A stretch of DNA of 33,941 bases from a virus. Position 1 is the stretch's first letter; the number at the start of each line of letters is the position of its first letter. The DNA lies in IMG/VR virus record IMGVR_UViG_3300047440_000535, positions 1-33,941 of that record; one strand, written 5' to 3'. Shown here one piece after another: positions 15,560 to 33,008 of the stretch. Under the pieces are notes generated by a model that saw only the letters and a program-made list of their open reading frames with translations, was not told where the DNA came from and searched no databases. Both the position numbers and the translations under genes were made by a program.

Positions 15560-15797
15560 GGCAGTCCTCCATGTGGTTCCTCACGGCCCTGTGGTCGTGC
15601 GTGTAGCCATAGTGCTTGGCGAGGACCTCGCGCACCATGTTGCGCCACTTCACCGAAGTTGCCCCCGTCCTGCGCGCCTCGTTGAACCGCAGGAGGACGT
15701 CCTCCACGGCGGCCCGGTTGGGATGGCGGCAGGTCGCACAGTGGACGCTGGGACGGTGGAGCTCAGTGGACAGGAAGGAGTCTAGCGGATCGGGCAT
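15540..15797 (-). CDS. Small CxxC + helix-turn-helix-like protein
   Basis: This protein has 85 residues. CATCRHPNRAAVEDVLLRFNEA is followed by VKWRNMVREVLAKHYGYTHDHRAVRNHMEDC. It combines a CxxC knuckle, helices and a resolvase-like or terminase-like HTH ending with RNHMEDC, a recurrent phage DNA-binding design. It may be a transcription or packaging accessory. The ATG lies 35 bases inside the upstream gene; no better start is seen. Confidence 0.65.
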   Translation of the reverse strand: MPDPLDSFLSTELHRPSVHCATCRHPNRAAVEDVLLRFNEARRTGATSVKWRNMVREVLAKHYGYTHDHRAVRNHMEDCLGIQQH

Positions 15798-16302: not shown

Positions 16303-16315
16303 CCGCCTCACACCC

Positions 16316-16909
16316 TCATTGTACCCCGGCCGGGGGCGGAGGGGTAGCGCGGCGCATCGCGGCCAGGGCGAGCCCACGGGCACGGAGCTCGGCCCGGCGC
16401 TCCTCGGAGATGAGCTTGGGAGGCGTGAACCGGACCTTGTGGCGCTTGAAGGACAGGGCGAGGATGTTGCGGGCCGCAGCGCCGAGGTGCGCCCCCACCA
16501 GCGTCAGGAAGGCCTCGGCGAACGGCCAGTGGTGGCCCGTCCTCGGCGTGCAGATGTGGGCGAGCTCGTGGAGGCAGACCACCTTGGTGTAGCCCCAGGG
16601 GGCCAGCCGGATCCGGCGCTGGAAGGACTGCGCATTGCAGCCGTGGCCCTTCAGCACGGACACGCTCGGCTTCTCGGTGTGGTTCCTCTTGCAGAGCGCC
16701 TTCCACATCGCGGACTCGGTCACGCTGTGGATGAACTTCTGGCACTCCTCGAAGGTCATGCGCTCGGAGCCGATCTTGAGCACCGCCTCGGCGGAGTACA
16801 GCCGCTGCTTCTTGGAGTCCCGGTAGGGGATGTAGTGCCAGCGGCCGGCGTGCTGGACATTGAAGTGTCCCACCTTGTGCTCCGGCTCGGTCGGGTCGCG
16901 CTTGATCAT
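16316..16909 (-). CDS. HExxH metallohydrolase-like protein, 197 aa
   Basis: This cytoplasmic protein has HELAHIC at 114-120 and HHWPF at 126-130. The HExxH followed about 8 residues later by a His matches the arrangement in SprT-like and related minimal zincin domains. The N-terminal part is unrecognised (SprT proteins act on DNA-protein crosslinks, but that is not shown here). The C-terminal tail is basic and then Pro-rich. The ATG overlaps the upstream stop as ATGA. Confidence 0.75.
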   Translation of the reverse strand: MIKRDPTEPEHKVGHFNVQHAGRWHYIPYRDSKKQRLYSAEAVLKIGSERMTFEECQKFIHSVTESAMWKALCKRNHTEKPSVSVLKGHGCNAQSFQRRIRLAPWGYTKVVCLHELAHICTPRTGHHWPFAEAFLTLVGAHLGAAARNILALSFKRHKVRFTPPKLISEERRAELRARGLALAAMRRATPPPPAGVQ

Positions 16910-18601: not shown

Positions 18602-20806
18602 TCAGAACCTCGGCTCGGTCTCGGGGGCGATCCTCACCGAGCCGTCCGGGCAGATCGTCACGCCGAGCTGCGGCCCCTCGCCGTTGGTGTAGACCCAGCG
18701 GGGCTTGCCCTCGAAGCGCAGCTTGCGCCGCCTCCAGCCGAGCTCGAGCATCACGCTGCCGAGCCGCTCGTTGTGGTCCTGGCTGCGCTGCCCCTCGGGG
18801 ATGCCGGCCGCGGCCCAGATGTCCACGGCCCGGATCTTGCCCTTCTGGTCGCCCAGCGCCTCGGACAGGTTGTGCAGGAAGGGGTCCTCCACCATGCGCT
18901 CCTCCTGCTGCTCGGCGGCAGCTGCGTACAGGGACGGGTCGAGCCTCACCGGGTCGCCCCGGGCCTCGCAGAAGGCAGCCTCGGCCCAGATCTGGTCACG
19001 GTCGCGGCGGAGCGCCTCGAGGTCGACGGCCCCTGTGACCACGGGCCAGTAGCGCCTGTTGCCGTGCGAACTCCGGAGGTAGCGGTCCGAGTTGGTCGTC
19101 CCGATCATGATGAACTGCCGCGGGAGCTCGGTGGTCATCCGGCCGTAGGCGAGCCGCGACCGGTCGACGCGGCGGGAGAGGCAGGCGTTGAGCGCCTCGA
19201 CGTCGGAGCGCCTCATGCCGGTCAGCTCACCCGCCTCGATGATCCAGCGGCCCGCGACGGCCTCCATGAAGCGCTTGGTGTCCGCGCCCAGGGGCAGGTC
19301 GTCGCTGAACCAGTCCTCGTTGACGGCCAGCGTGGCAATCAGGGAGGACTTGCCGCGCCCCTGCGGCCCCTCCAGGATGAGCATCTCGTCAAACTTCGCG
19401 CCCGGCTGGCGGATCCTGCGCACGGCTGCCACTAGGGTCAGCCGCCCGACGGCGCGCACGTAGGGGTTGGACTCGGAGCCAGCATAGATCGGGAGCCACT
19501 CGCTGATGCGCTCGCGGCCATCCCACTGGAGGCAGTCGAGGTACTCGCGGACGGGGTGCCGGCGGTTGGCCAGGGCCAGCGCCTTCATGATCCCCACTGC
19601 CCGGTCCATGCTGAGGTTGAAGCCGTAGCGCTCCTCGAGGTAGCCCCACAGCACGGTCGCTGCGTTGTCGCTGAGCCCCGGGCCGTAGCCGGCCAGGCCG
19701 TGGACCAGCAGCCGGTCGGAGAAGTCGTCCTGCTCGAACTCCACACCCAGCTTGGAGATGGCCATGCGCACGTTGGCGATGGTCGGCCGGGGCTTGCCGC
19801 CCTCGTCCTCGGCGAAGTCGCCTGTGGAGTCCTTCGCCCGCCGGATCTGGCGCAGGGCGTACTCGTGGGACTTGCGCCCCAGGCGGGTCACCGTCTTCGA
19901 GATGCCGAAGCGGGGGTCAGTGATGACGGAGTACGTGACCTCGTCGGGCACACCGGCCCTGACGAGGTCGCAGACCACAAAGAAGAGGGCCTCACTGTCC
20001 GATGGCCACCGCTCCGGCCGGTCCGGGTCGCGCCCCTGGGCGATGACCTGGCGGCAGGTCTCGGAGACGTTCTCCGGGAGGTCGGCCAGCCCGCCGATCC
20101 GGACGATGTTCTCGGGGTTGATCCGCAGGGCGGGGGTGTCGCCCTCCTCCACGGTCGGGGGGAGCGCCCGCCCGAACGTCTGCAGGAGGTGGTCTCCCTC
20201 GAGGAGCTCGATGACGCACGCCATCGCGGGGGTGCGGCCCTTCTTGCGCTTCCGCTCGTCCGGCCAGTTGACCGTCCCGGGCAGGCGCATGATCCGGTCC
20301 GCGTTGTGCGTCCCGTTGTCGCCCTCGAGGTCGAGCACGAGCTGTATGTTGTAGCGCTCGAGCTCCTCGGCCCGGTCCAGCTTCCCGTCGATGACGAACG
20401 GCTCCGACAGCCTCCAGAACCCCTGGTAGCCACCGCCGGAGAAGCAGATGGCAGTGGGGCGGGGGAGGTGGTCCCGGAGGCGCTTGAGGATGCGGGTGCG
20501 CTCGGCCTCCAGGTCCTCACCAGCACGCGGGTCCAGGTCGACGTGGAGCCAGTGGACGGCCTTCAGGTCCTCCTTCGAGGCCTTCTTCTGGACCTCGTGG
20601 AGGAGCTCCGCCACACTGAAGTAGACGTTGTCCGCTGCGTGGCGAGCGAGCCACTCGGCGAGCTCGGCATGCCTGGCTGTGTCGAACGTCGCGGTGTCGA
20701 TGCGCTTCTTGTCTGTGGCGATCGAGGTCAGGGCCCAGGCCCGGCCGGGGTGGAAGGCCTCGAGGAATGCCGTGGCCACGGCCGGGTCGTGGCGGAGGTC
20801 GGTCAT
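18602..20806 (-). CDS. Primase-helicase: AEP-like N-terminus plus VirE/SF3-type ATPase
   Basis: This 734-residue replication protein has an N-terminal domain with WLHVDLDPR (86-94), where the Asp pair fits an archaeo-eukaryotic primase-polymerase active site. Next are CFSGGGYQGFW (121-131) and HNADRIMRLPGTVNWPD (168-183), both typical of RepB/prim-pol proteins. A linker leads to an ATPase domain with Walker A EGPQGRGKSS (479-488), WIIEAGE (521-527) and the sensor IMIGTTNSDRYL (566-577), as in virulence-associated-E/D5-like helicases. It should prime and unwind at the fork with the adjacent family A polymerase. The ATG at 20806 overlaps the nuclease gene; an upstream extension is open but lacks conserved content. 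Confidence 0.9.
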   Translation of the reverse strand: MTDLRHDPAVATAFLEAFHPGRAWALTSIATDKKRIDTATFDTARHAELAEWLARHAADNVYFSVAELLHEVQKKASKEDLKAVHWLHVDLDPRAGEDLEAERTRILKRLRDHLPRPTAICFSGGGYQGFWRLSEPFVIDGKLDRAEELERYNIQLVLDLEGDNGTHNADRIMRLPGTVNWPDERKRKKGRTPAMACVIELLEGDHLLQTFGRALPPTVEEGDTPALRINPENIVRIGGLADLPENVSETCRQVIAQGRDPDRPERWPSDSEALFFVVCDLVRAGVPDEVTYSVITDPRFGISKTVTRLGRKSHEYALRQIRRAKDSTGDFAEDEGGKPRPTIANVRMAISKLGVEFEQDDFSDRLLVHGLAGYGPGLSDNAATVLWGYLEERYGFNLSMDRAVGIMKALALANRRHPVREYLDCLQWDGRERISEWLPIYAGSESNPYVRAVGRLTLVAAVRRIRQPGAKFDEMLILEGPQGRGKSSLIATLAVNEDWFSDDLPLGADTKRFMEAVAGRWIIEAGELTGMRRSDVEALNACLSRRVDRSRLAYGRMTTELPRQFIMIGTTNSDRYLRSSHGNRRYWPVVTGAVDLEALRRDRDQIWAEAAFCEARGDPVRLDPSLYAAAAEQQEERMVEDPFLHNLSEALGDQKGKIRAVDIWAAAGIPEGQRSQDHNERLGSVMLELGWRRRKLRFEGKPRWVYTNGEGPQLGVTICPDGSVRIAPETEPRF

Positions 20807-21207
20807 TGGCGCAGCAGGTTGAGGAGGCGGTCCCAGCCGTCCTTGTCGTCCGTCCGCCACGTCAGGTCGGCCGCAGCTCGGAGCTGCGCCGGGCTTGACT
20901 CCCCGATCAGGTCGGCCGCGACGTCCCCGCGGAGCAGCAGCCACTCCGAGGCGACCTTCAGGAGGAGATGGGCCCGCCCGCCCTTCATGACGCGCTGGCG
21001 CAGCCAGAGGCGCTGCTGGACCGTGAAGTGGGGGATCCGGAGGTGCCAGCGGTCCGAGCTCGGCCAGCTCGGCACCTCCTTGTTCTCGATCCAGCCGCCG
21101 ACATAGTTGATGTCCGGCGTGCCGGGGTGGACAGCGTTCTCGACGCGGACCGGGTGGAGCGGTCGCAGCGCGTCCATCACGAGCCGGCTCATGCTCTGCT
21201 CGCTCAC
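20803..21207 (-). CDS. VRR-NUC-like PD-(D/E)xK nuclease
   Basis: This protein has 134 residues. HPVRVENAVHPGTPDINYVGGWIENKE contains the nuclease core: E23, PGTPD (28-32) and EnK (41-43). This is the arrangement in VRR-NUC/Holliday-junction-resolvase-like phage enzymes, which cut branched DNA during replication and packaging. The C-terminal half is helical. It uses a GTG start overlapping the dCMP deaminase TGA and is coupled to the primase-helicase. Confidence 0.8.
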   Translation of the reverse strand: MSEQSMSRLVMDALRPLHPVRVENAVHPGTPDINYVGGWIENKEVPSWPSSDRWHLRIPHFTVQQRLWLRQRVMKGGRAHLLLKVASEWLLLRGDVAADLIGESSPAQLRAAADLTWRTDDKDGWDRLLNLLRQ

Positions 21208-21644
21208 AGGGGGAACTTCCTCACATCGACTCCGGCCTCGAGCAGCATGGCCTCGGAGAGGGCCATCGCATCGCGCCAGCGTTCAGGAACGGGGATCCAG
21301 CGGGGGAATCGTACCGCGCGGATCCCAGACTGGATGATCAATTTTGAGCATTCAGAGCACGGTGGGAGCGGGAACAGGTACAGCGTCGAGCCGCGGACCG
21401 GTCCGGGGGAGTTGAGGATGGCGTTGGCCTCGGCGTGGACCACCATCTTGTACTTGAGGTCCCTGTCCGCGAGGCGTTCAGGAGTGTCCTGAATGCCTCG
21501 CGGCAGTCCGTTGTAGCCGAGGCTCAGCACCCGCTTCAGGTCGTCGACGATGACGGCACCGACCTTGGTGGACGGGTCTTTTGACCACGTTGAGACCATG
21601 TCGGCCAGCTGGAGGAACCGGACATCCCAGTTGGATTGGCTCAC
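21204..21644 (-). CDS. Deoxycytidylate (dCMP) deaminase
   Basis: This 146-residue enzyme converts dCMP to dUMP, the substrate of the TS-like hydroxymethylase encoded upstream. The zinc and catalytic motifs are HAEANAI (70-76) and PPCSEC (94-99), and the N-terminal SKDPSTKVGAVIVD block and GYNGLPRG are typical of the dCMP deaminase family. The start is GTG 21644, in a GTGA overlap with the DNA polymerase stop. Supplying dUMP fits a phage that replaces thymine with an hmdU-derived base. Confidence 0.92.
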   Translation of the reverse strand: MSQSNWDVRFLQLADMVSTWSKDPSTKVGAVIVDDLKRVLSLGYNGLPRGIQDTPERLADRDLKYKMVVHAEANAILNSPGPVRGSTLYLFPLPPCSECSKLIIQSGIRAVRFPRWIPVPERWRDAMALSEAMLLEAGVDVRKFPL

Positions 21645-23527
21645 TTGATCTCCCCCCAACTCGGTCCCGTCTCCGCGTCCACCTTCATCGGCACCTCGCA
21701 CGGCACTGCGTCACGCATGATCTCCGACAGACTGGCCGAGGTCTCCGGCCCGGAGGACAGGTCGAGCTCGTCGTGGACCTGGAGCTGCAGCGGGATGCTG
21801 GCGTCATCCGCGTCCACCATCGCCTTCTTGGTCTGGTCCCCGCTCGACCCCTGGATCAGGCGGTTGAGCGCCTTGTGGCACCAGTCCCACCCGCCCTTGC
21901 CGTTGGGGGGGAACCGGCAGCGCCGGCCGAGGACCGTGCGGATGAACCCGCGCTGCGCGGCCCGGTCCTCGCAGCGCTTGGCCATGGCCCGGACGAACGG
22001 CATGCCGCTGTCGAACTTGAGCAGCACGGCCTCGCCCTCGGGCCCGGCCGCGTCCACCATCTTGTTCTGCCGCCTCGAGAACACCTTGACGGTCGGCAGC
22101 TTGAGCTTGCGGCACATCTTGCCCCCGCCCATGCCGTAGCAGCGCCCCAGGAGGATCTCCTTGGCGTCCTTCCGCTTCAGGCCGGTCCACTCCGCAGACA
22201 TCTCGTGGTAGTCCAGCCGGGGGTTGTCGATGTAGCGCTGGCGCGCAGCCGCGGCCCCCTCGCAATTCGAGATGAACGCCCAGTGCACCAGCCAGCGGAT
22301 CTCCTGCTGGGAGTAGTCGTGGCAGGCCCAGGGGAGGTCGCCGTCGGGGAGGAAGTTGGAGCGCCACATCGGCCCCAGCACCGGGTCGCGGGCCGGCTGC
22401 TGCTGGAGGTTGGGGTCGCACGAGCTGAGCCGGCCGTAGCGGGCCCCGGAGTCGTCGCCACCCTCCTCGTCGTCGGTCTTGCGCAGCTGGTTGAACGTCG
22501 GGTGGATCCGGTCGCCGATGGCGTGCTCCCTCATCGAGGCGACGTAGGAGGTGCGCACCTTGTTGATCTGCCTCGAGCGGCGCAGCAGGCCGGCCACGGG
22601 GTGCTCGATGGAGTCGAGGAGCTCCTTGGTCACGCTCGGCTTCTTGGTGGCCGGCGTGAGCGGCACGTCCACTCCCACGTGCTCCAGGACCTTGGCCAGT
22701 GGGCCGGCGGTCCAGAGGTCGTTGGAGGACAGGCTGATGCCAGTCAGGCGCTTGACCTCCGCCAGGACCTCCTCCTCCATGAAGCCCAGGCGGGTCTCAG
22801 TCTGGGCCAGCCGGTCGAAGGAGATGCGGACCCCGCGGCGGCGCATCTTGACGAGGACGGGGAGCAGCCGGCTCTCCAGGTCGAAGATGCCCTCGAGGTC
22901 CTGCTCTGCAATGATCCTCTCCTGGCGGCGGAGGAGCGCGAGCGGCTTGCGTGCGTCCGCCTCACCGTAGGCCCCGACGTGCTTGGAGTGGAGCCGCCAC
23001 AGCCCAGCCTTCGGGTCGAGGCCGAAGGCAGCAGCCGCAGCACGGAGGTGCGCCTCGTCCTTGCCCGGCAGGCCGTGGCGTCCCAGGACGTCGTCGAGGC
23101 CGTATCCGTTCTGCAGCTCGTCGATGAGGGGCTCAGCCACGAGCACGTCGAGCCAGCGGTGGGGGCGGAAGTGGACCCTGGCCTCCTCCAGGAAGTCATA
23201 CTCATACTGGAGGTTGGCCCCGACGAGGCTGCCGGTGAAGTCGCGGGCCTGGTCGCGCAGGTACGCCAGGACCTGGACGCGGTCCAGGTTGCCCCCGGCC
23301 TCGTGGCCGAACGGCAGGTAGCCACCAGGGCCGTCCTCGATGGCGAATGAGACCCCGACGATGCTGGCACCGCGGCGGACACCCGGGCCGAGCTGCTTCA
23401 GCTTTGCGTCGTGCGTCTCGAGGTCGATGGAGACCCGCTTGGCACCCCGCCAGGAGGGGAGCGAGGAGAGTTGCGGGGGAGTCCAGCTGGAGCGGGGCTC
23501 CAGGAGGGGGAGGTCAGAGAGGGACAT
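21641..23527 (-). CDS. Family A DNA polymerase with 3'-5' exonuclease
   Basis: This 628-residue replicative polymerase has the exonuclease motif I DLET at 35-38 and the exo II-like GANLQYEYDF at 103-112. Polymerase motif A is DYSQQEI (404-410), the O-helix is RKDAKEILLGRCYGMG (452-467) and motif C is QVHDEL (583-588). In the O-helix the residue aligned to E. coli Phe762 is Leu460. It would have to use the modified dNTP (hmdUTP). No 5'-3' exonuclease domain is present, as usual for phage polymerases. The ATG overlaps the upstream gene by 14 bases, and the stop is coupled to dCMP deaminase. Confidence 0.95.
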   Translation of the reverse strand: MSLSDLPLLEPRSSWTPPQLSSLPSWRGAKRVSIDLETHDAKLKQLGPGVRRGASIVGVSFAIEDGPGGYLPFGHEAGGNLDRVQVLAYLRDQARDFTGSLVGANLQYEYDFLEEARVHFRPHRWLDVLVAEPLIDELQNGYGLDDVLGRHGLPGKDEAHLRAAAAAFGLDPKAGLWRLHSKHVGAYGEADARKPLALLRRQERIIAEQDLEGIFDLESRLLPVLVKMRRRGVRISFDRLAQTETRLGFMEEEVLAEVKRLTGISLSSNDLWTAGPLAKVLEHVGVDVPLTPATKKPSVTKELLDSIEHPVAGLLRRSRQINKVRTSYVASMREHAIGDRIHPTFNQLRKTDDEEGGDDSGARYGRLSSCDPNLQQQPARDPVLGPMWRSNFLPDGDLPWACHDYSQQEIRWLVHWAFISNCEGAAAARQRYIDNPRLDYHEMSAEWTGLKRKDAKEILLGRCYGMGGGKMCRKLKLPTVKVFSRRQNKMVDAAGPEGEAVLLKFDSGMPFVRAMAKRCEDRAAQRGFIRTVLGRRCRFPPNGKGGWDWCHKALNRLIQGSSGDQTKKAMVDADDASIPLQLQVHDELDLSSGPETSASLSEIMRDAVPCEVPMKVDAETGPSWGEIK

Positions 23528-23882
23528 GCCGAGGAGTGGGGTTCATCGCCCGGGCGGCATTGTCGATGGCGTCCGCGACAGAGCCCAAGCCGGAGGCTAT
23601 CCCCTCGAAGGTCTCTCCCATGAGAGGGTGCGCATTGAATCTGTCAACGTCGTCCACACGCACGCTGACCCCGTCAAGGACTTCGATGGGTAACTTGCCT
23701 CCTTCTAACGCGAAGTCGAGGCGTTCTCTGATCCCAGAGAGAGCATAGGACTGTCTGTCGAAGATCGTTGCCTTGAACATCTCGACCAGAGCTCGTGGAT
23801 CTCCCGCGACGTCCTCCAGACCGTGCAGTCTCAGCTCCTCTTTCAATCTGAACAATGAATCTGCGTATCGGCTTGCGTCCAT
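23514..23882 (-). CDS. Hypothetical protein, lower GC than neighbours
   Basis: This 122-residue helical protein (SLFRLKEELRLHGLEDVAGDPRALVEMF; later SVADAIDNAARAMN) has no recognised family. The DNA is visibly richer in A/T and has different codon choices from the genes either side, suggesting later acquisition. It sits between the Nmad1-like gene and the polymerase, overlapping the polymerase start. Confidence 0.6.
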   Translation of the reverse strand: MDASRYADSLFRLKEELRLHGLEDVAGDPRALVEMFKATIFDRQSYALSGIRERLDFALEGGKLPIEVLDGVSVRVDDVDRFNAHPLMGETFEGIASGLGSVADAIDNAARAMNPTPRHVPL

Positions 23883-23891
23883 GAGAATCTC

Positions 23892-24236
23892 CTACTTATT
23901 GTCCCGGTGCCACGGGTTCACGCCGCGGGCCCGCACCTCGGCCTCGACCAGCATGAGGTAGCGGCGGAGGTCACGGATGTCGTCCAGGATGCCCTCGGAG
24001 CGCTGGTCGGCCTCGACGGCCTTGAAGACGTCGAAGCCGTGCTGGCCGACCTGCAGCTCGGCTCGGTCCCACTTGCGGGCCAACATCATGAAGGCACCGA
24101 CACCGCCCCGGCGCTTCCAGGAGTCCCCGTAGCTCTGCTGCGCCTTCTTCAGGCCCGCGACGTCCTCCTGGGCGATGGCCTCGAGCTGCTCGAGGTACAG
24201 GTAGCGGAGGTCAATGGGCTCAGGAGTGAGGGGCAT
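23892..24236 (-). CDS. DUF1599/Nmad1-like protein (nucleotide-modification associated)
   Basis: This 114-residue all-alpha protein has QSYGDSW (34-40), ARKWDRAE (53-60) and a helix GILDDIRDLRRYLMLVEAE. This fits my memory of the DUF1599 pattern (DYG-x-SW then a Lys/Arg helix), a family also named nucleotide modification associated domain 1. Its biochemical role is not established. Its place at the end of the hypermodification genes, overlapping the HD phosphatase by 17 bases, supports the assignment. No profile search was possible. Confidence 0.6.
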   Translation of the reverse strand: MPLTPEPIDLRYLYLEQLEAIAQEDVAGLKKAQQSYGDSWKRRGGVGAFMMLARKWDRAELQVGQHGFDVFKAVEADQRSEGILDDIRDLRRYLMLVEAEVRARGVNPWHRDNK

Positions 24237-24762
24237 CGTCGGTCTCCTTCGGGATCAGGTCGGTGCTGCGGCCGGGGTAGTAGGTCTCGAGGAACACGGT
24301 CACGGGGTCGGGGATCTTGGTGGCCTCGCGCTCGAACCAGCCGACCAGGGCTGCGCGGATCTTCTGCGACAGCTGGTTGCCGAGGGCCAGCTGGTCGAAG
24401 GTCCACAGCAGGAGCTCGAGCTTGTCGATGGCCCTCAGCCAGCGCTCGTCCTCGTCGGTGAGCTGGATGAGCAGCCCCGCCCGGTCGAGGCACATGTGCT
24501 CGAGCGCCAGGTAGGACTCGTTGAAGGCGTCCGAGGACCACAGGGCCGTCGCTGGCGTGTCGCCGATCCAGCGCTCCGGGGCGTCATGCCACAGCAGCGC
24601 CTTGACCAGGTCCATCGACGGGTTGGGGTGGAGGCAGAGCAGGAGGTTCACCGCGTTGAAGCTGTGGAGCCCGACGGAGTAGGACCCGTGGTGCGGGATG
24701 GTGTGGCACCGCTCGACGGCCCCCGCCTCGCGGAGCACCTTGGCCCGGTCGTGTGCGTTCAT
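24220..24762 (-). CDS. HD-domain dNMP phosphatase (YfbR/dTMPase-like)
   Basis: This 180-residue HD-superfamily hydrolase has a metal-binding series RCH (18-20), GLHSFNAVN (31-39), WHDAPERWIGD (58-68) and AIDK (110-113). This matches 5'-deoxynucleotidases of the YfbR type, which dephosphorylate dNMPs. In phages that exclude thymine such enzymes destroy dTMP so that the modified nucleotide is used instead; this specificity is inferred from context. The ATG overlaps the TS-like gene stop as ATGA. A longer upstream extension of the frame is not conserved and was not used. Confidence 0.8.
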   Translation of the reverse strand: MNAHDRAKVLREAGAVERCHTIPHHGSYSVGLHSFNAVNLLLCLHPNPSMDLVKALLWHDAPERWIGDTPATALWSSDAFNESYLALEHMCLDRAGLLIQLTDEDERWLRAIDKLELLLWTFDQLALGNQLSQKIRAALVGWFEREATKIPDPVTVFLETYYPGRSTDLIPKETDDAPHS

Positions 24763-25751
24763 TTCATCCTCTTGAACAGCCACAGTGCGGCTGCGGTTCT
24801 CCAGTCGTCGGCTGTGACTGCGTCGACCTCCTCGAGGGCGACCTGTGGCCACTTGTTCTTGTGGGCACGCCAGGCCCGGAGGAGCGGCAGGGCCGTCTGA
24901 GTGAAGAACGGGTCGGTGTAGTGCCCCGGCTGCGTGTCCCCGTCGAGGAAGAGGCCCAGCTGGGCCATCCACTCGTCGACGTCGATGGAGACGAGGTCCT
25001 GGGTCCTGACCTGCCCGAGGGAGTAGGGGCACTCGTGGACCTGGGGCGGCATCGGGGCCCAGTTTGCCAGCTCCTTGACCAGCCCGAGGTGCGTGTTGAC
25101 GTAGGTGTGGGCGTTCATCGAGACCTGCCACGAGCTCCCGACCTCGCACCCGATCATCGCGGCCATGAGCTCCTGGAGCATCGAGAAGTGGACCGCGTTG
25201 GCGCCCAGCATCCCCCAGATCACGTCGTTGGAGCGGTTGGTGACCACCATGTCGAGCTCGCCGGTGTCCCGTCGCTGGAAGATGGCCTGGAGGTTGCAGG
25301 GGATGTCCCGGGACTGGAGCCCGAGGTCACGCCGCGCGTCCCACATCGAGACGACCTCCCGCCTCGAGTCGGGGTTCACCCGGAGGGCCGTGGCCACCTT
25401 CACGATCTGGTCGATGCCGAAGTGGCTGCGCCAGCGGCGGCCGTATGCCCCGTTGAAGGTGAGGCCGTCGTCGGAGAAGTCGGCCATGCGCTTGTTGAAC
25501 TGGGCCAGGTAGCCGACATCATCGCGGCCACCCAGCATCCAGAGCGCCTCGAACAGGTGGAAGAACGGGTTGGCGTCGCGCTGCGGCCAGAACAGCACGC
25601 GCTCGCGCGGACAGTCGAGCTGGACGGTCAGGGGCTCGCTGAGCTTCAGGACCGGGCCGTTGCGGCTGACGCGAGCAACACCGGAGTTGAGGAGCTGGTG
25701 GCAGGCCTCGGGCAGCGCCTGGTGGACGTTCCGGACGTGGATGACCTTCAT
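24759..25751 (-). CDS. Thymidylate-synthase-like dUMP hydroxymethylase
   Basis: This 330-residue enzyme of the thymidylate synthase superfamily has the catalytic Cys in DIPCNLQ (C152), the nucleotide-binding RSND (173-176), and a phage-type block WGMLGANAVHFSMLQE, where Asn185 would accept a uracil ring, then HTYVNTH. In a cluster with hmdU-DNA kinase and transferase genes, the reaction is most likely dUMP plus methylene-tetrahydrofolate and water giving 5-hydroxymethyl-dUMP rather than dTMP. Ordinary thymidylate synthase is the alternative. The ATG is overlapped by the end of the homing endonuclease gene (ATGA). Confidence 0.88.
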   Translation of the reverse strand: MKVIHVRNVHQALPEACHQLLNSGVARVSRNGPVLKLSEPLTVQLDCPRERVLFWPQRDANPFFHLFEALWMLGGRDDVGYLAQFNKRMADFSDDGLTFNGAYGRRWRSHFGIDQIVKVATALRVNPDSRREVVSMWDARRDLGLQSRDIPCNLQAIFQRRDTGELDMVVTNRSNDVIWGMLGANAVHFSMLQELMAAMIGCEVGSSWQVSMNAHTYVNTHLGLVKELANWAPMPPQVHECPYSLGQVRTQDLVSIDVDEWMAQLGLFLDGDTQPGHYTDPFFTQTALPLLRAWRAHKNKWPQVALEEVDAVTADDWRTAAALWLFKRMK

Positions 25752-26317
25752 GCTGTAACCCTACCTTGGTTGAGATAGCGCGGCTGAGACTCTCGTTGCC
25801 TACTGGCTTTGTCGCTCACTATGCGTCGGCTGGCATCCGTCCACGTGTGATGCCCAAGATTCTTGGCACTCCACTGTCGCTTCGCTCGAGCCGATCGTCG
25901 TTGGACCTCACCGGGCCTTCTGGCGACTTCTTTGGCTCGTTCTGATAATCTTCGGCGGGTCTCGGCCGATCTGCGCACCCCCCTCGTCGCGCCCGCCGTC
26001 TTCAGTTGATTGTATCCGTCGGCGTTACGGTCAATGAACCACTGTTCATACCGCAACAGCTCAGATCGCTCGCAGATCAGCAAGACGCGAAACGAAAAGG
26101 CCTCCTCACCGTGCTTGTTCCATGAACGCTGAAGATGCAAGTTGGAGTGCTTGTCTCGCCGGAGCAGAGCTTTGTGATTGCTCCAACGGTTGAAGCAGCT
26201 AGCGCCTGATCCGATGTAGCGTCGGCCCGTGACTCTGTTCACGAGCTCATAGATGCCCGGAACTTTCGTTTGGCCCTCCCTCCCTCGCGGATTGAGACGA
26301 TTTTTGCCACTTCGCAT
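25748..26317 (-). mobile_element. GIY-YIG homing endonuclease inserted in the modification cluster
   Basis: This 189-residue protein (from ATG 26317) has the GIY-YIG core GIYELVNRVTGRRYIGSG (about 21-38), the catalytic Arg in FNRWSNHK, and the Glu in YEQWFID. A NUMOD3-like SAETRRRLSERAKEV segment and a basic DNA-binding tail follow. It makes a DNA break that spreads its own gene between related phages. Its DNA is clearly richer in A/T than its neighbours. It overlaps the last 79 bases of the HMUDK helical-domain gene and ends in an ATGA overlap with the TS-like gene, so it is fitted neatly between two modification genes. The exact start is uncertain. Confidence 0.9.
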
Positions 26318-27114
26318 GCCCAGGTCTCGACCTCCTGGAGTGTCCACGGTCTGCTGCGGTCATGCCAATGGTCACGCGAGGCCTGCAGCACCTCGCGTGC
26401 GGCCTCAATCATCTGCTCCTGGTCGCGCCTCGAGCCGTAGCTCCAGTGGTCCATGTCTCTGTGGAAGACCCAGCCCAGCCCGCGTGCGCACCCGGGCCCG
26501 GCGCAGGTCCAGGTGTCGATGTCGGCCGTGTCGACGAGCGGGGTGTTGATCAGGTCGCGCACGGCCTGGTACGCCATGAAGTTGCCGAGGCGGGGGAACA
26601 GGCGGAGGTCGTTGAAGGCCTCCTCCATGCGGTACTCGTTCAGCCGCCAGTCGGCCACCGTGCTGTGCCAGACCCTTGCCACGTTGTCGATGCAGTCGAG
26701 GATCGAGGACAGCTTGTCCATCCCCGGCTTGCTGTTCACGATGAAGGCCCCGGTGAAGATCGGGAGGCCCGCGTCCCTCCGCTCCTTGAGCCTGGCGTGG
26801 ACCGAGGGGCTGCTCCACTCTAGCTCACCGTTGAGGAAGGGGAGGATGGACTCCCCCGTCTCGATGAGGTTGAACCAGCGGAAGGCGATGATGGATAGGA
26901 ACACACTGTCGTCCCGGGCCACCACCAGCGGCCTGGTCACGTTGTCCCTCAGCCAGCGCGTCGTCTTGTCGTCGTCGCGGAAGACGTTGCACAGCCGCGT
27001 CGTCTGGAGGACCGGGTCCTGGGTCCAGGGGGGAGGCTCGCCACGGCTCCGACGGAGCCGGATCTGGTCACGCTCGTTCGCCAGGGAGATGAACTCCCAC
27101 AGGCGGGAGCTCAC
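26239..27114 (-). CDS. 5-hmdU DNA kinase helical-domain protein (HMUDK_hel / aGPT-Pplase2 type)
   Basis: This protein has 291 residues from GTG 27114 (GTGA overlap with the kinase). The N-terminal signature RGEPPPWTQDPVLQ (24-37) then RLCNVFRDDDKTTRW (40-54) is characteristic of the family called 5-hmdU DNA kinase helical domain, formerly alpha-glutamyl/putrescinyl thymine pyrophosphorylase clade 2. The rest is helical and includes YGSRRDQEQMIEAAREV. It lies next to the P-loop kinase and probably works with it as a two-subunit enzyme. The last ~26 codons overlap the homing endonuclease, so the C-terminus may have been altered by the insertion. A start at ATG 27132 is also possible. Confidence 0.8.
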   Translation of the reverse strand: MSSRLWEFISLANERDQIRLRRSRGEPPPWTQDPVLQTTRLCNVFRDDDKTTRWLRDNVTRPLVVARDDSVFLSIIAFRWFNLIETGESILPFLNGELEWSSPSVHARLKERRDAGLPIFTGAFIVNSKPGMDKLSSILDCIDNVARVWHSTVADWRLNEYRMEEAFNDLRLFPRLGNFMAYQAVRDLINTPLVDTADIDTWTCAGPGCARGLGWVFHRDMDHWSYGSRRDQEQMIEAAREVLQASRDHWHDRSRPWTLQEVETWACEVAKIVSIREGGRAKRKFRASMSS

Positions 27115-27680
27115 AGACCCAGGAGCTGACATGCCGTCACCACCGCGAGCTCGCGGGAGCAGTCGTGGACGGGGACGCCGGCCGCGCGGATGCGCGCCAG
27201 GCTCCGCTCGATCACCTTGACCCGCTTCGAGGTGTTGGTCGGGTCGAGAAGGGTGGGGACCTTGCCCCTCTTCTCTGCGCTCGCCTCGCGGCGGAGCTGG
27301 ACCGAGGCCAGGCACTCCTCGAGGCTCGTGGTGAGCGCGATGCAGTGGATGGGCAGGCCGTCTCGCTGGAGGGCCAGGATCCGGTCGGTGCCCTCGGACA
27401 GCAGCAGCCCCTCGAACAGGACGTGCTTGCCCTGGGAGTGGAACAGGCGGACCAGCTCGAAGGTCCTGTCCAGCCCCTTGATCGTGTCGCAGCCCCCGCA
27501 GGTCGACTCATAGGAGCCGAGGGTGGCCACCTCCGAGCCCGACGGGAGGGCGTGGATGTAGGCCAGCGGCCTGCGCCGGCCGTCCTCCATCACGGTGCTG
27601 ACCAGCTTGAGCTTCTCCAGGACGCGGCGGACAGCCGTGGACTTGCCCGAGCCGCTCGTCCCTCGCATGTTGATGATCAC
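27111..27680 (-). CDS. 5-hydroxymethyl-dU DNA kinase, P-loop domain
   Basis: This 189-residue P-loop kinase starts MIINMRGTSGSGKST (Walker A 7-15). SYESTCGGCDTI (57-67) and GKHVLFEGLLLSE are hallmarks of the phage kinase family that phosphorylates 5-hydroxymethyl-dU in DNA to activate the hydroxymethyl group for nucleophilic replacement, as shown for phages ViI and M6. The GTG start overlaps the stop of the small gene upstream, and its stop overlaps the helical-domain gene. This is the central activation step of the predicted pathway. Confidence 0.88.
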   Translation of the reverse strand: MIINMRGTSGSGKSTAVRRVLEKLKLVSTVMEDGRRRPLAYIHALPSGSEVATLGSYESTCGGCDTIKGLDRTFELVRLFHSQGKHVLFEGLLLSEGTDRILALQRDGLPIHCIALTTSLEECLASVQLRREASAEKRGKVPTLLDPTNTSKRVKVIERSLARIRAAGVPVHDCSRELAVVTACQLLGL

Positions 27681-27919
27681 AGTCCCATCTTCCTTCTGAG
27701 GTCAGCGTTGAGCCTGGCCTCCTCGGCCTGGAGCCGAGCAACTGAGGCCTCGCGGATCCGGTTGGCCGCCTCGGCCAGCATGTTGCCCGCGTTCATGAGG
27801 GCGTCCGAGAGGCAGGGGCGGTAGATTGTCTGCTTGTTGTCGAGGTCGATCTCCAGGCACCCGCAGGGGCGCTGGCGCTGGGCCACGACCTTCGGCTGCT
27901 CAGGGGGTTGGTCAGTCAT
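27677..27919 (-). CDS. Small cluster protein with CxC motif
   Basis: This protein has 80 residues. The N-terminal RPCGCLEIDLDNKQTIYRPC could hold a small metal site, and the C-terminal half is a charged helix (LAEAANRIREASVARLQAEEARL). Function is unknown, but it is sandwiched with overlaps between the radical SAM gene and the kinase gene, so it may be a partner or chaperone of the modification enzymes. Confidence 0.6.
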   Translation of the reverse strand: MTDQPPEQPKVVAQRQRPCGCLEIDLDNKQTIYRPCLSDALMNAGNMLAEAANRIREASVARLQAEEARLNADLRRKMGL

Positions 27920-29292
27920 CGGACTCCCTTCCGGAGGTCGGCCAGGCGGAGCGCCTTCGCGGAGCCGAACAGCTCGGACCCGCAGCGCGGCTTGCCGGCG
28001 TTGTTGTCGGCGCACAGCAGGCACCCGGTGGGCGGGCACTCCTTGACCTCGGCGAACTGCTCCGCGGACGAGGTCCGCGTGTACATCGGGACGCGGTGCC
28101 CGTGGCACTGGGCCGAGGTGATGAAGTCGGCCCCGATGGAGACCCCCCGCTTGTTCACCGGGTCGCCCGCCTCGTCCCGCAGGTACTTGTACTCATAGCA
28201 GGTGGAGTAGGTGAGTCCCAGCTCGGTCGCCCTCCGGCGGTAGCGCTCGTGCCCCTCGAGGCGGTAGGCCTCGTCGACGGTCTTCTGGCCGCCGATGTTC
28301 TGAGTGAAGAGGCGGACGAACGGCTCCATTCGCTCCGCTCCGAAGCGCTTGACGTGCCGCTCGACCATGGTGCTGGCCCAGGAGTAGCCGGCCTCGACGA
28401 ACTTGACGATGACGTGGTTGGCCCCGGCTGCCGCGAGCTTCTCAAAGAGGCGCTCGACGTCGTTGTGGTTCACCAGGCCGGGGATGATCGGGTTGCACTG
28501 GATCGAGACGTAGATGTTCCGCGAGCGCATCTCCCGGATCTCCTCGAGGTGCTCGCGCAGGCTGATCGCCCCGGGGCTCAGCTTGCGCCAGACGTCCTCG
28601 TCCGGGGTGTTGATCGACTTCTGGGCGTAGCTGTGGCGGTTCACCGTCAGGATGTCCTTGGCCCAGGAGGGGTAGGACAGGCGGCTCAGGAAGAAGACCG
28701 GCAGGCCCTGGCGGACGAACTCCTCCGCGCCGGCCTGGGTGTTGTGGTACAGGTCCTCGAGGGGTAGGAAGGGGTCGGTGAAGGAGGAGAAGTAGCCGGC
28801 CGCGCTGGTCCGCATCGTCATCAGCTGGTTGCGGACGTGCTCGCCGTACCCGACCGGGACGGTGACGAGCCCCGCGCCGCGGTAGCCGCGCACTCCGGAG
28901 TTGATGTAGCAGAACGAGCACCCCACCTGGCACGTGCCGCCGTAGGGCTGGGTCAGGATCGCATCGGTGAAGCAGGGCCGGGGGCGCACGTCGAGGTCGT
29001 TCCCGGCATGGTCCTTCGAGCTGTACCAGCCCTGGAGGTCCTTCGCCTTGGGCATCCTGATGTGCGGGATCGGGTCGAGGAAGACCTTGGAGCGGGCCTT
29101 GACGGCCGCGTTGCGGACCATCCCGACGTCGATCATGCGGTGGCGCAGCTCGAGGCCCGTCAGCGGGTCGAGCTCGGTCACGATCGGCCCCATGTCGTGC
29201 ATCGGCTCCGGCCGCATCATGTACTTGTAGTTGGCCTTGGCCGGCTCGCCGCCGTCCTCCTCGTTGTTCAGCCATGCGTCGACCTGGTCCAT
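27916..29292 (-). CDS. Radical SAM enzyme, predicted modified-thymidine isomerase
   Basis: This 458-residue enzyme has the canonical CxxxCxxC cluster CQVGCSFC (C121, C125, C128). After it come YINSGVRGYRG, a YFSSFTDPFLPLE stretch and a TIM-barrel-like series of strands. Four more cysteines near the C-terminus (419, 424, 427, 437) could hold an auxiliary Fe-S cluster. In Pseudomonas phage M6 a radical SAM enzyme converts a glycyl-N-linked thymine side chain into a carbon-linked one; the gene context here supports a related reaction. The general barrel layout also resembles spore-photoproduct-lyase relatives. The ATG overlaps the upstream stop (TGATG). Confidence 0.88.
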   Translation of the reverse strand: MDQVDAWLNNEEDGGEPAKANYKYMMRPEPMHDMGPIVTELDPLTGLELRHRMIDVGMVRNAAVKARSKVFLDPIPHIRMPKAKDLQGWYSSKDHAGNDLDVRPRPCFTDAILTQPYGGTCQVGCSFCYINSGVRGYRGAGLVTVPVGYGEHVRNQLMTMRTSAAGYFSSFTDPFLPLEDLYHNTQAGAEEFVRQGLPVFFLSRLSYPSWAKDILTVNRHSYAQKSINTPDEDVWRKLSPGAISLREHLEEIREMRSRNIYVSIQCNPIIPGLVNHNDVERLFEKLAAAGANHVIVKFVEAGYSWASTMVERHVKRFGAERMEPFVRLFTQNIGGQKTVDEAYRLEGHERYRRRATELGLTYSTCYEYKYLRDEAGDPVNKRGVSIGADFITSAQCHGHRVPMYTRTSSAEQFAEVKECPPTGCLLCADNNAGKPRCGSELFGSAKALRLADLRKGVR

Positions 29293-29624
29293 CAGAAGGT
29301 CTCCCCGGGATGCTTGGTCGGCTCGCGGCCGTCGCGCCAGTTGATCAGGTAGCTCTTGTGGACGGCCGGCATCTCACCGACTCCTCTGGATGAGTCGCCG
29401 ACGACCCTGAGCTCGAGGAAGGAGTCACCGATGGGGAGGCAGTAACAGTCCCCAATGTGAGCCGTCTTCGGGACGAGCCAGTTGACGACGGCCTGCTGAG
29501 CGTTGGCGATCTCGCAGGTTGCCCTGTTGAGCTCGCTGTGGGCAGCCTCGACGCGCGAGGACGCTGACCTCCAGGCACTGACGAGCCGCGCGCCCTCCTG
29601 GGCCAGGTCTAGCCGACGTTCCAC
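29292..29624 (-). CDS. Small hypothetical protein in the modification cluster
   Basis: This 110-residue protein has a helical, Arg/Ser/Ala-rich N-terminal half and a beta-rich C-terminal half (IGDCYCLPIGDSFLELRVVGD). No family is recognised. The GTG start overlaps the PLP-enzyme stop by 16 bases, and its stop overlaps the radical SAM start. The tight packing argues that it belongs to the pathway, but its role is unknown. Confidence 0.6.
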   Translation of the reverse strand: MERRLDLAQEGARLVSAWRSASSRVEAAHSELNRATCEIANAQQAVVNWLVPKTAHIGDCYCLPIGDSFLELRVVGDSSRGVGEMPAVHKSYLINWRDGREPTKHPGETF

Positions 29625-30424
29625 AGCAGTGTCTCCCCTCTGAACCGGTAGGAGGCCTCTGCGCGCTCCCGGAGGAACCAGCGCAGGGCCTTCAGGTCAT
29701 AGAACTGGTTGCACGGCCACGGCGGGGTCGCGCCCGGGAGCGCAACGTCCCTGTACCCATACCCCTCGTCGACGACCGTGACGTTGGCGAGGACCAGCCC
29801 CGACATCTTGGAGAGGTACTCCCGCACGGCCGGCTCGGGCCGGCTGTAGCCCATGTGGACGATGACGTGTGGCTCCTGGCCGATCTGGTGCAGGCCCTTG
29901 ATCACGCCGGCCGCGATCGTGCCCGAGCTCGCGGGGATGATCACGCGGTCGATGCGGACGGGCAGGCTGGTGTGGCGGACCTCGCGGGCCGTCTCGTCGA
30001 CCGACTCCTGCAGCTTGAGGGCATTGGGCATCATGTAGCCGCCTGAGCCGAGGTCGGCCAGGTACTGCCGCGCCCGGTGGTAGATCACGGCGCTGCGCCC
30101 GGCCTGGAGGGGCACGAGGGCTGCTCCGAGCTCGCGCGCACGGAGCTGCGCCGCGTGCGGCCCCTCGTTCTTCTTGAACGAGGGGTAGAAGTTGACGCAC
30201 TGCTTGCCGAGGGTCTGGCAGGCCCAGGCGACAGCGTGGCCGGCCTGCGAGTGGTAGGTGTCGAGGACCCCGATGACCGCCTCCGGGCGGTTGGCGAGGT
30301 GCGCCATCACTCCGCGCATCTTCGAGAAGGGGGGACCGGGGGGTGGGGAGGAGAGGTCCTCCCGCTTCACCCACAGCCCGAAGTCGGTGCGGTGGTCCTC
30401 GACGGGGGTGCCTTGAACGAGCAT
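29609..30424 (-). CDS. Fold-type II PLP-dependent enzyme (side-chain tailoring)
   Basis: This 271-residue enzyme is of the tryptophan-synthase-beta / ACC-deaminase fold. The probable PLP lysine is K35 in PPFSKMRG. DTYHSQAGHAVAWA (55-68) and the phosphate-binding SSGTIAAG (166-173) are typical. Known members eliminate, deaminate or decarboxylate amino acids. In hypermodification phages PLP enzymes act on the amino acid after it is attached to the thymine methyl group, for example as decarboxylase or lyase. That activity is inferred here. It lies between the UDG-like and radical SAM genes. Confidence 0.85.
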   Translation of the reverse strand: MLVQGTPVEDHRTDFGLWVKREDLSSPPPGPPFSKMRGVMAHLANRPEAVIGVLDTYHSQAGHAVAWACQTLGKQCVNFYPSFKKNEGPHAAQLRARELGAALVPLQAGRSAVIYHRARQYLADLGSGGYMMPNALKLQESVDETAREVRHTSLPVRIDRVIIPASSGTIAAGVIKGLHQIGQEPHVIVHMGYSRPEPAVREYLSKMSGLVLANVTVVDEGYGYRDVALPGATPPWPCNQFYDLKALRWFLRERAEASYRFRGETLLWNVG

Positions 30425-30433
30425 GGGTGAACT

Positions 30434-30928
30434 CTACTCCGTCCTGCTGAGCTCGGACTTGAGGTGCGTGAAGAAGGCGAGCGCCTGGGCACGGTGCTCC
30501 TTGCTGTTCCACCAGAGGTTGCGCCCCGACGGGTGCGGCACAACAGCGAAGTGGGCGGGTCCGTTCAGGGGCGTGAGCCCGTCGACCTCGAGGGGCTTCC
30601 ACTTGAGCAGGGCGATCTTGCGGCTGCCAAAGAAGGCCTGGGTGACCTTCTGGCCGAGGAGGATGACCTTCTGTCCAGAGCTCGCAGCCTTGATGAACAG
30701 GGCGACCGAGGCGTGCGCCGCCTCCTCCCGCGGCCACTTGGTGACGGCCCGGCGGACGAGGTTGGTGCGGTCAAACCAGGCCAGGTACTCCTCGAGCGTC
30801 CAGCCGGTGTAGGTCAGCAGGCGGTTGGCCGAGTGGCAGGCCCCGGACCGGTCGGGCCGGAGCCAGAGCTCGGGGTGGTGCTCCGTGTTCCAGTTGGGCG
30901 ACTCGCCGATGAGGATGACCTTCTTCAT
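30434..30928 (-). CDS. Uracil-DNA-glycosylase-superfamily protein
   Basis: This protein has 164 residues. ILIGESPN (5-12) and the late HPSGRN motif (132-137) in VVPHPSGRNLWWN, plus VILLGQKV (88-95), are the typical pieces of the UDG fold. Classical catalytic residues differ between families, so I cannot say whether it cleaves a glycosidic bond or only binds a base. Its ATG at 30928 overlaps the transferase stop as ATGA. A role in removing or sensing uracil or partially modified bases is plausible. Confidence 0.75.
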   Translation of the reverse strand: MKKVILIGESPNWNTEHHPELWLRPDRSGACHSANRLLTYTGWTLEEYLAWFDRTNLVRRAVTKWPREEAAHASVALFIKAASSGQKVILLGQKVTQAFFGSRKIALLKWKPLEVDGLTPLNGPAHFAVVPHPSGRNLWWNSKEHRAQALAFFTHLKSELSRTE

Positions 30929-31818
30929 GAGGCGACGTCGAGCGGGATGTGAGCCGCGAGCCGGCGGGCCGTCTCGCTGTACGTGGCCCAAGCGCAGAGG
31001 GAGGTGTAGACCTCCTCCCAGTCGTTCCCGACGGGGTAGTGTCCGTTGAGGTGCGAGCCCCACTTGCATAGGACCGTCTCGACCTCCTGGAGGCCGCAGA
31101 GGCGCTCGTTGCGCGGCGGGGCAGTGAGGCGCATAGAGCAACCAGCCTGCGCTACCAGCCCGTCCTCGGTGTACATCAGCTGCCGAGCGCACTCCTTCAG
31201 GGCGAGCAGGGGCGACTCCGGCTTGGTGTTGTAGGTCATCTCCCACCACCTCACCGCAGCCTCCCGCGGTGACTCCACCCTGAGGACGTCCTCGAGGGTG
31301 AAGGACACCTCCGCGATCCCGATGCGCTCGATCATGTCGGCCGCCTTGAACCCGATCCAGGGACCGAACTGGGGGTGCTCGCGCATGCGCGCCACTACCT
31401 GGGAACAGGTGATGGCCGGCTCGCCAGCCATCCGGCCGAAGCCGGACACATATTGCACCATCTTGTGGGGGCAGTCCCCGTACAGGCCCCGCAGGGAGTA
31501 CACGGCCGTGACGGACTTGGTCCCGCGGAAGTGCCGGCGCTCGTGGCCGCGCGGCCACCGGTCCTGTGTGGGGGCGGGGACCTCGTTGTGGGCAGCCAGG
31601 GCCATCCACTCCCAGAAGTCGTTGCCCTCGTGCTCTGAGAGCCACGACGCTGCGCCGACGGAGTAGAAGCACCAGTAGGCCACCAGCCAGCGCTGGAGCT
31701 GCCGCTCGGGCAGCCCCGCGCGGTGCAGGACGATGTAGACCGGGTCGAGGTCGCCCGTGCGGACGAGCTCGCGGCCGAAGGTCGAGATGTCGAGGCGGGG
31801 GTAGTCGCGGGTGGACAT
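30925..31818 (-). CDS. Amino acid:DNA transferase (aGPT-Pplase clade 3-like)
   Basis: This 297-residue protein carries the recurring motifs of the alpha-glutamyl/putrescinyl-thymine pyrophosphorylase family: GDLDPVY (22-28), RWLVAYWCFYSVGAASWLSE (43-62), RGHERRHFRG (90-99) and FGPWIGFKAADMIER (151-165). In characterised relatives the enzyme replaces the activated phosphate on 5-hmdU in DNA with an amino acid or amine. The likely substrate is glycine if the downstream radical SAM/PLP steps follow the phage M6 model. It is the first gene of the modification cluster. The family call is confident; the amino acid is inference. Confidence 0.85.
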   Translation of the reverse strand: MSTRDYPRLDISTFGRELVRTGDLDPVYIVLHRAGLPERQLQRWLVAYWCFYSVGAASWLSEHEGNDFWEWMALAAHNEVPAPTQDRWPRGHERRHFRGTKSVTAVYSLRGLYGDCPHKMVQYVSGFGRMAGEPAITCSQVVARMREHPQFGPWIGFKAADMIERIGIAEVSFTLEDVLRVESPREAAVRWWEMTYNTKPESPLLALKECARQLMYTEDGLVAQAGCSMRLTAPPRNERLCGLQEVETVLCKWGSHLNGHYPVGNDWEEVYTSLCAWATYSETARRLAAHIPLDVAS

Positions 31819-31835: not shown

Positions 31836-33008
31836 TTACTGGATGACGGTGACGCGGTCGGCCGCGCGGGTGATGGCGGTGTACAGCCAGCGGCGGCTGT
31901 GGGCCCGGAAGCAGTCAGACTCGTCGACGACCACGACCGAGTCCCACTGGCTGCCCTGGGCCTTGTGGCAGGTCAGGGCATAGCCGAAGTCGAAGTGCTC
32001 GGCCCGGCTCATCCCAATCGGGATCTCCTGGCCCAGGAAGTGCTCGGTGTGGGCATCGCAGATGACAATGCGGTCCTCGTCACGTAGCCGGAGGCCGACG
32101 ATCCCCGAACCCTTCGGGCAGGATTCCTCGACGGTCCACTGCCCCCCGTTCAGGAGGCCGAGGTCGTGGTTGTTGCGGAGGCAGACGAGGCGCTCACCCG
32201 GCTGGGGCAGGGCCTCGGTCTCCTTGTGCAGCGTCCGGAACATCCGGTTGATCCGCCTCCGCGTGGCGTTGCGTCCGCAGATCACCTGGTCATGGGCGGC
32301 CAGGTCGGAGGTCCGCAGGCTCCCGCGCTGGACGACCTGCGACTGGCCGTACTCGCCCAGGGCGAGCGTGTCCCCGTTCCGCACGGACGTGGCGAGGGCG
32401 ACCACCGGTGACCCCTGGGCCTGGCGATGGATCTCCGTCAGCATCGTGTCGGGCTTGCGGCCGGTGAAGTAGTCCCCGTCCCCGACCGGGGGGAGCTGGG
32501 CCGGGTCGCCCAGGACAAGGATGGGGGTGCCGAAGGAGAGGAGGTCGATGCCCATGCGCTCCCCCACCATCGAGACCTCGTCGATGATCAGGAGGTCCGC
32601 GCCCTTGATGTCGGAGCAGGGGTTGAGGGAGAAGGCGGGGCGGTTGTGGGCGATGCGCTCGCGGCGGAGGGCCTCGCGCAGATCACGAGCGCGGTCAGGA
32701 TCGTCCGCGCTTGCGATCTGCGCCTCGAGCTCGCGGATGCGCGCTGCGGACTTGGACTGCGGGGTGTAGGCGAGGGAGTGGATGGTGCGCGCGCCCAGGC
32801 AGCCCTTCTTCTGCATCACGAGGGCGGCCTTGCCGGTGAACGCAGCGAACAGGACGCGCTCGAGCCCCATGAGCTCGGCGAGGTGGATGGCCAGCGTGGT
32901 CTTCCCCGTCCCGGCGTAGCCGAACAGGCGGTAGACCTGCTGGGTGCCCGCGGCCAGCCAGGCCCGGACCCCGTCGACGGCTCCCTGCTGCTGCGGCGAG
33001 AGGTCCAT
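31836..33008 (-). CDS. SF1 helicase (RecD/Dda-like)
   Basis: This 390-residue ATP-dependent DNA helicase has Walker A GYAGTGKT (30-37), then TGKAALVM, Walker B LLIIDEVSM (139-147) and GDPAQLPP. The late motif TCHKAQGSQWDSVVVVDES and motif VI YTAITRAADRV complete the UvrD-like C-terminal set. Such proteins help replication, recombination or displacement of DNA-bound proteins. The ATG overlaps the stop of the 41-codon membrane gene upstream. Confidence 0.92.
   Translation of the reverse strand: MDLSPQQQGAVDGVRAWLAAGTQQVYRLFGYAGTGKTTLAIHLAELMGLERVLFAAFTGKAALVMQKKGCLGARTIHSLAYTPQSKSAARIRELEAQIASADDPDRARDLREALRRERIAHNRPAFSLNPCSDIKGADLLIIDEVSMVGERMGIDLLSFGTPILVLGDPAQLPPVGDGDYFTGRKPDTMLTEIHRQAQGSPVVALATSVRNGDTLALGEYGQSQVVQRGSLRTSDLAAHDQVICGRNATRRRINRMFRTLHKETEALPQPGERLVCLRNNHDLGLLNGGQWTVEESCPKGSGIVGLRLRDEDRIVICDAHTEHFLGQEIPIGMSRAEHFDFGYALTCHKAQGSQWDSVVVVDESDCFRAHSRRWLYTAITRAADRVTVIQ

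Follow-up and report, generated by a model that had tools for sequence, protein, structure and literature searches.

A distant uncultured phage with a predicted thymidine hypermodification operon of the M6 type

Does a cluster of DNA modification genes in an uncultured phage encode a new way of altering thymidine, or one that is already known? The question is raised by the virus record IMGVR_UViG_3300047440_000535 of IMG/VR (33,941 bases, GC content 68%; this whole stretch is called the window below), in which a preliminary description had noticed a complete predicted thymidine hypermodification pathway and had allowed for a new variant of it. The comparisons presented here argue that the cluster is very probably an operon of the type found in Pseudomonas phage M6, and hence an addition to a known system, not the first case of another. 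The M6-type pathway, which leads to 5-(2-aminoethyl)-deoxyuridine (5-NedU), would thereby be extended to a distant, GC-rich and uncultured phage.

Gene content and order of the cluster

The named genes are all on the minus strand, and in the direction of transcription they start at about 33.0 kb and run downwards. The order is Dda-like helicase, amino acid:DNA transferase (AADT), a protein resembling uracil-DNA glycosylase (UDG), a pyridoxal phosphate (PLP) enzyme, a 110-aa protein, a radical S-adenosylmethionine (SAM) enzyme, an 80-aa protein, a 5-hydroxymethyl-deoxyuridine (5-hmdU) DNA kinase, its partner HMUDK_hel, a GIY-YIG protein, a protein resembling thymidylate synthase (TS), an HD phosphatase, proteins of 114 and 122 aa, a family A DNA polymerase (PolA), dCMP deaminase, a relative of M6 gp66, and primase. 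The start and stop codons of neighbouring genes mostly overlap, by 1-25 nt, and the preliminary description was correct to speak of an overlapping cluster with polymerase and deaminase genes behind it. All reading frames of the pathway genes are open, their motifs are intact, and their GC content at third codon positions (GC3) is about 0.9 or more.

The enzymes were identified with Pfam and with leave-one-out profiles, i.e., family profiles built without the window sequences and run against the 465 open reading frames (ORFs) of the window. In Pfam, ADDT, HMUDK_hel, Thymidylat_synt and PALP score above their curated cut-offs, while Radical_SAM (18.4 bits), UDG (21.1), HMUDK_HMUD1 (18.5) and YfbR-like (15.3) fall below theirs. 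The leave-one-out profiles recover the tested genes at E-values of 1e-33 to 1e-232 (Table 1). Since these matches are clear, the doubt that Pfam leaves over the radical SAM enzyme, the HD protein, the kinase and the UDG-like protein is removed. Profile searches had been proposed as a check on the cluster: HMUDK_hel passed in Pfam itself, whereas the radical SAM enzyme did not and was settled by its leave-one-out profile. The enzyme genes named earlier are all present at the positions stated for them. Positions 20170-26284 of the window recur with 99.98% identity in another assembled contig (L133); therefore, there is no mis-assembly at the GIY-YIG region.

In M6, a member of Yuavirus, the genes for AADT, the PLP enzyme, the radical SAM enzyme, the kinase, HMUDK_hel, the TS-like enzyme, the HD protein, PolA, deaminase, a VRR-like protein and primase stand in the same order, which follows the gp numbers in Table 1. 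The pathway proteins are 28-61% identical between the two phages; downstream of the deaminase, the gp66 relatives share 48% and the primases (gp68) 43%. Both phages also encode the UDG-like protein, although its gene lies between those for AADT and the PLP enzyme in the window and upstream of AADT in M6. The window differs further in having the GIY-YIG gene and two small orphans, and in lacking Nmad5 (gp56), DUF3489 (gp49) and ribonucleotide reductase (RNR, gp46), for which a profile search of the window ORFs gave no match. Because Nmad5 is found in only nine of 48 radical SAM neighbourhoods, it is not treated as defining the M6-type pathway. Among the traits of the M6 family, Mesyanzhinovviridae, the replication block is colinear with that of M6, and no virion gene was recognised in the window fragment. 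In M6 the presence of 5-NedU in the DNA has been shown, and of over 200 restriction enzymes 48.4% fail to cut this DNA (PMC6449724); roughly 30% of its thymidine is replaced (review part of PMC11946847).

Table 1. Features of the cluster in the window, with the M6 counterpart (amino acid identity in brackets) and the leave-one-out profile score in bits.
Feature	Position	Strand	M6 protein	Bits	Other evidence
Dda-like helicase, upstream edge of block	31836..33008	-	gp45 (47%)		PF13604 1e-25
AADT, predicted glycine transferase	30925..31818	-	gp51 (46%)	315	PF18724 1.6e-18
UDG-fold protein, probably accessory	30434..30928	-	gp48 (32%)	110	phrog_12275 1e-19
PLP enzyme (PALP fold type), predicted decarboxylase	29609..30424	-	gp52 (49%)	388	PF00291 3.5e-14
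110-aa protein, GTG start	29292..29624	-			no relatives in database and locus searches
Radical SAM enzyme, predicted glycyl-thymidine isomerase	27916..29292	-	gp53 (61%)	733	Cys motifs
80-aa protein	27677..27919	-			single weak relative in database and locus searches
Predicted 5-hmdU DNA kinase, P-loop, GTG start	27111..27680	-	gp54 (28%)	148	Walker A; PF18748 below cut-off
HMUDK_hel partner protein	26239..27132	-	gp55 (29%)	208	PF18723 1.4e-41
GIY-YIG endonuclease-like gene, apparently inserted	25748..26317	-			PF01541 2.4e-4; GC3 0.62 vs ~0.93 around
TS-like, predicted dUMP hydroxymethylase	24759..25751	-	gp58 (53%)	432	PF00303 8.6e-23; TS Trp absent
HD-type nucleotide phosphatase (YfbR-like)	24220..24762	-	gp59 (45%)	175	phrog_6047 1e-47
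114-aa conserved small protein	23892..24236	-			adjoins HD/PolA in 17 loci; identity up to 63%
122-aa orphan, just upstream of PolA	23514..23882				GC3 0.67
Family A DNA polymerase (PolA)	21641..23527	-	gp62 (50%)	769	PF00476 8e-37
dCMP deaminase (longest frame; start not settled, stop at 21204)	21204..21701	-	gp65 (48%)		PF00383 1.7e-17

Active sites and the predicted pathway

The catalytic features expected of such a pathway are retained. AADT reaches 67.7 bits against the ADDT cut-off of 26.2 and has solved relatives in the PDB (25qc and 8z2m/8z2n), of which the latter (2e-64 for 8z2m) is named 'glycinyltransferase'. The CxxxCxxC motif and the C-terminal cysteine set of the radical SAM enzyme are invariant or nearly so over 96-99 relatives, and lysine K35 of the PLP enzyme is invariant over 76. 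The kinase has kept its Walker A motif, and HMUDK_hel is complete to its conserved C-terminal part; a profile comparison of these two proteins revealed no relationship between them. A search of PDB sequences with the radical SAM profile found no relative, and no second copy of the radical SAM stretch was present among the viral contigs searched.

The TS-like family keeps the nucleophilic cysteine, the RSxD motif, the base-reading asparagine (in 75 of 77 sequences) and the His/Tyr pair. In none of the 79 aligned TS-like sequences is the first tryptophan of the WDEW stretch of TS retained; its place is taken by Met, Phe, Ile, Tyr, Val or Leu, with Met in the window protein. CMP 5-hydroxymethylase, to which the family profile gives its best match in the PDB, has Ile at the same position. 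Loss of this active-site tryptophan fits hydroxymethylation rather than methylation, and the TS-like protein can thus be predicted to be a dUMP hydroxymethylase.

The enzymes occur together well beyond M6. A tblastn search of phages with the radical SAM enzyme found 67 records, mostly M6/YuA-like Pseudomonas phages together with Bordetella phages, the matches listed being about 59-61% identical. The 48 radical SAM neighbourhoods hold genes for the PLP enzyme (44), AADT (43), the kinase and HMUDK_hel (41 each) and the TS-like enzyme (40). These six genes look like the core of the pathway, while Nmad5, DUF3489, RNR and the UDG-like gene look optional.

Under this prediction, dCMP deaminase and the TS-like enzyme would produce 5-hydroxymethyl-dUMP, the HD phosphatase would probably clear competing nucleotides, and PolA would incorporate 5-hmdU into DNA. 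After replication, the kinase, acting with HMUDK_hel, would phosphorylate 5-hmdU at certain sites in DNA, and AADT would let glycine displace the phosphate leaving group to give N-alpha-glycylthymidine. The radical SAM enzyme would then turn the N linkage of the glycyl group into a C-alpha linkage, and the PLP enzyme would decarboxylate the product to 5-NedU. Thymidine would be replaced only in part, the presumed gain being resistance to restriction, and the UDG-fold protein would be an accessory rather than a required step. The order of reactions is carried over from M6 and related work, including that of Lee et al., in which incorporation of hmdUMP, phosphorylation, attachment of glycine, radical SAM rearrangement and PLP-dependent decarboxylation to 5-NedU are reported.

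The best reading is thus that part of the thymidine becomes 5-NedU, with 5-hmdU and a glycyl adduct as intermediates. It has a high probability, because every step has a homologue in a phage whose DNA contains 5-NedU, the gene order is colinear and the catalytic motifs are kept. A base of the aminoethyl type, derived from 5-hmdU within the DNA and replacing some or all of the thymidine, had already been suggested in the preliminary description; in the form of a partial replacement, homology and synteny with M6 support it well. By analogy, 5-NedU can be named as the product in part of the thymidine positions with good, though not full, confidence. Several points weigh on the other side. The kinase and HMUDK_hel are only 28-29% identical to their M6 counterparts, and the kinase lies under the PF18748 cut-off; the window has no Nmad5, which M6 shares with phages FP1, Bhz59 and Pam3; and, the record being a fragment, an extra tailoring enzyme could lie outside it.

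The same points, and the two orphans inside the operon, might be taken to mean that the chemistry is shared as far as glycyl-thymidine and then leads to a different end product, either because the divergent enzymes differ in specificity or through a tailoring enzyme outside the 33.9-kb fragment. This seems unlikely, since the radical SAM and PLP enzymes are 61% and 49% identical to those of M6 and keep their motifs. In the 5-NmdU pathway, a flavin-dependent lyase takes the place of the radical SAM and PLP enzymes. Among those proteins of this fragment that were scanned with Pfam, no flavoenzyme or acetyltransferase that would imply another end product, and no extra tailoring family, was seen. 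Still less credible is a partly inactive pathway that leaves 5-hmdU or only normal thymidine in the DNA. The low Pfam score of the kinase, and the GIY-YIG gene, which overlaps the 3' end of HMUDK_hel by 79 nt, could be read in this way, but the open frames, intact motifs, high GC3 and complete HMUDK_hel speak against it. If the pathway is indeed M6-type, enzymes at about 30-60% identity may be of use in locating specificity residues and in adding an amine handle to DNA.

The UDG-fold protein

The possibility of a new variant had rested on the UDG-like protein and two small unknown proteins, and it did not hold up: the former is a homologue of M6 gp48 (phrog_12275), which rules it out as the marker of a new variant, and the latter are essentially without relatives. 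Of the 44 phage records with a relative of the UDG-like protein, 41 belong to Pseudomonas phages, and several of the relatives are annotated as uracil-DNA glycosylase. In viral contigs and plasmids the single sequence gave no match, and an alignment was required. Its AlphaFold2 model (pLDDT 90.4, pTM 0.87) has the fold of UDG and thymine-DNA glycosylase (TDG), with a Z-score of 12.6 both to Thermus UDG (1ui1; rmsd 3.1, 145 aligned residues) and to human TDG (3uob). The PF03167 score remains below the cut-off of 24.3 bits; motif B (HPS) is present as PHPSG. Invariant over 28 relatives are G8, L21, R54, N56, G92, V95, P131, H132, S134 and G135.

The gene appears to be dispensable for the pathway, because Bordetella phages FP1 and CN1 have only a truncated copy and contigs L128 and L130 a broken one, while all four otherwise have the pathway. 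It is intact in the sister phage MW2 (L003 8397-8606, L068 5672-5881 and L086 3013-3483 for the three phages), and the comparison of FP1 and CN1 with MW2 amounts to a natural test of this dispensability. Nor is the family restricted to hypermodification: when 33 of the UDG-like records were searched whole, TS was found in 14, HMUDK_hel in 10 and HMUDK in four. ThyX was present in only two of 21.

SPO1 and SP-15 are phages with modified thymine. A UDG domain forms the N-terminal part of the DNA polymerase of SPO1 (PF03167 3.4e-22; L131 27242-29068) and probably of that of SP-15 (1.7e-4, below the cut-off; L132 27354-30599), whereas Pfam finds none in the polymerases of the window and M6. The profile of the UDG-like family does not match the SPO1 and SP-15 polymerases, and the link to PolA therefore rests on PF03167 and the fold rather than on close homology. 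In the structure of the phiLo polymerase (9qhs, 'with modified template'), the N-terminal part matches the UDG-like model with a Z-score of 11.7 (rmsd 3.1, 140 aligned). It is suggestive that phages with modified thymine may link the UDG fold with replication, fused in SPO1 and probably SP-15 and separate in M6-type phages, and this connection between M6-type phages and SPO1-type polymerases is a testable lead.

It is tempting to speculate that the UDG-like protein acts as a glycosylase and excises uracil or unmodified 5-hmU as a quality-control step of the pathway. The fold, the invariant PHxSG motif, the fusion to PolA and the occurrence of the gene at several different positions inside the cluster (in the window, M6, L056/L057 and L088) would fit such a role. 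Given its truncation in FP1 and CN1, whose other pathway genes are intact, and given that about half of the family occurs in phages where no TS or HMUDK gene could be detected, this role is doubtful. Similarly tentative, and probably not the right explanation, is the idea that the gp48 family is a working partner of hypermodification, i.e., the separate form of the PolA-fused domain that would read or edit uracil or 5-hmU when DNA with modified thymine is replicated.

Insertions, related phages and other genes

The GIY-YIG gene, which the preliminary description had left unnamed, lies between HMUDK_hel and the TS-like gene, at the place of Nmad5 in M6. It and the 122-aa gene look recently acquired, because their GC3 is low compared with surroundings that are mostly above 0.9; the 122-aa orphan is probably a recent insertion. 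Homologous free-standing GIY-YIG genes are found directly behind HMUDK_hel in five divergent phages, the window included (the others being L007 14041-14640, L017 6513-7277, L095 6045-6458 and L104 6405-7025). HMUDK_hel, a modification gene, is perhaps a recurrent homing target. Neither the 110-aa nor the 80-aa protein matches Pfam or PHROG; among about 130 loci, the former has no relative and the latter one weak match (L009, 35%).

The pathway block of the window is shared by Bordetella phages FP1 and CN1 and Stenotrophomonas phage Bhz59, all of which differ in carrying Nmad5; the UDG-like protein was not detected in Bhz59. In Bordetella phage MW2 the block was read as far as the PLP enzyme, and to that point it is the same. 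Pseudanabaena phage Pam3 has the same enzyme set (PLP enzyme 62% and radical SAM enzyme 60% identical to the window) and a relative of the 114-aa protein, but AADT follows the radical SAM enzyme, Nmad5 is carried and no UDG-like protein was detected. Salmonella phage ViI (5-NeOmdU) and Delftia phage phiW-14 (putrescinyl-thymine) likewise modify 5-hmdU in DNA after replication with a kinase and transferases (PMC6449724, PMC5977210), although their substituents differ from the M6-type aminoethyl group. The block is also carried by four contigs of bacterial metagenome-assembled genomes (MAGs; L127-L130, binned as Flavobacteriales, Anaerolinea and Thermogutta), of which L128 and L130 resemble phage sequence of the M6 type within a MAG.

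Elsewhere in the window, positions 13376-13852 encode a 158-aa protein consisting of a GGDEF (diguanylate cyclase) domain only (PF00990 5e-15), with an intact GGDEF motif and relatives in 13 phage records. Three small proteins have HExxH-type motifs (HEWAH at 13890-14246 and 15763-16317, HELAH at 16316-16909), and the two HEWAH proteins have a weak likeness to SprT. The product of 12795-13478 resembles MazG/PRA-PH pyrophosphohydrolases (PF01503 2e-14) and possibly acts on nucleotide pools.

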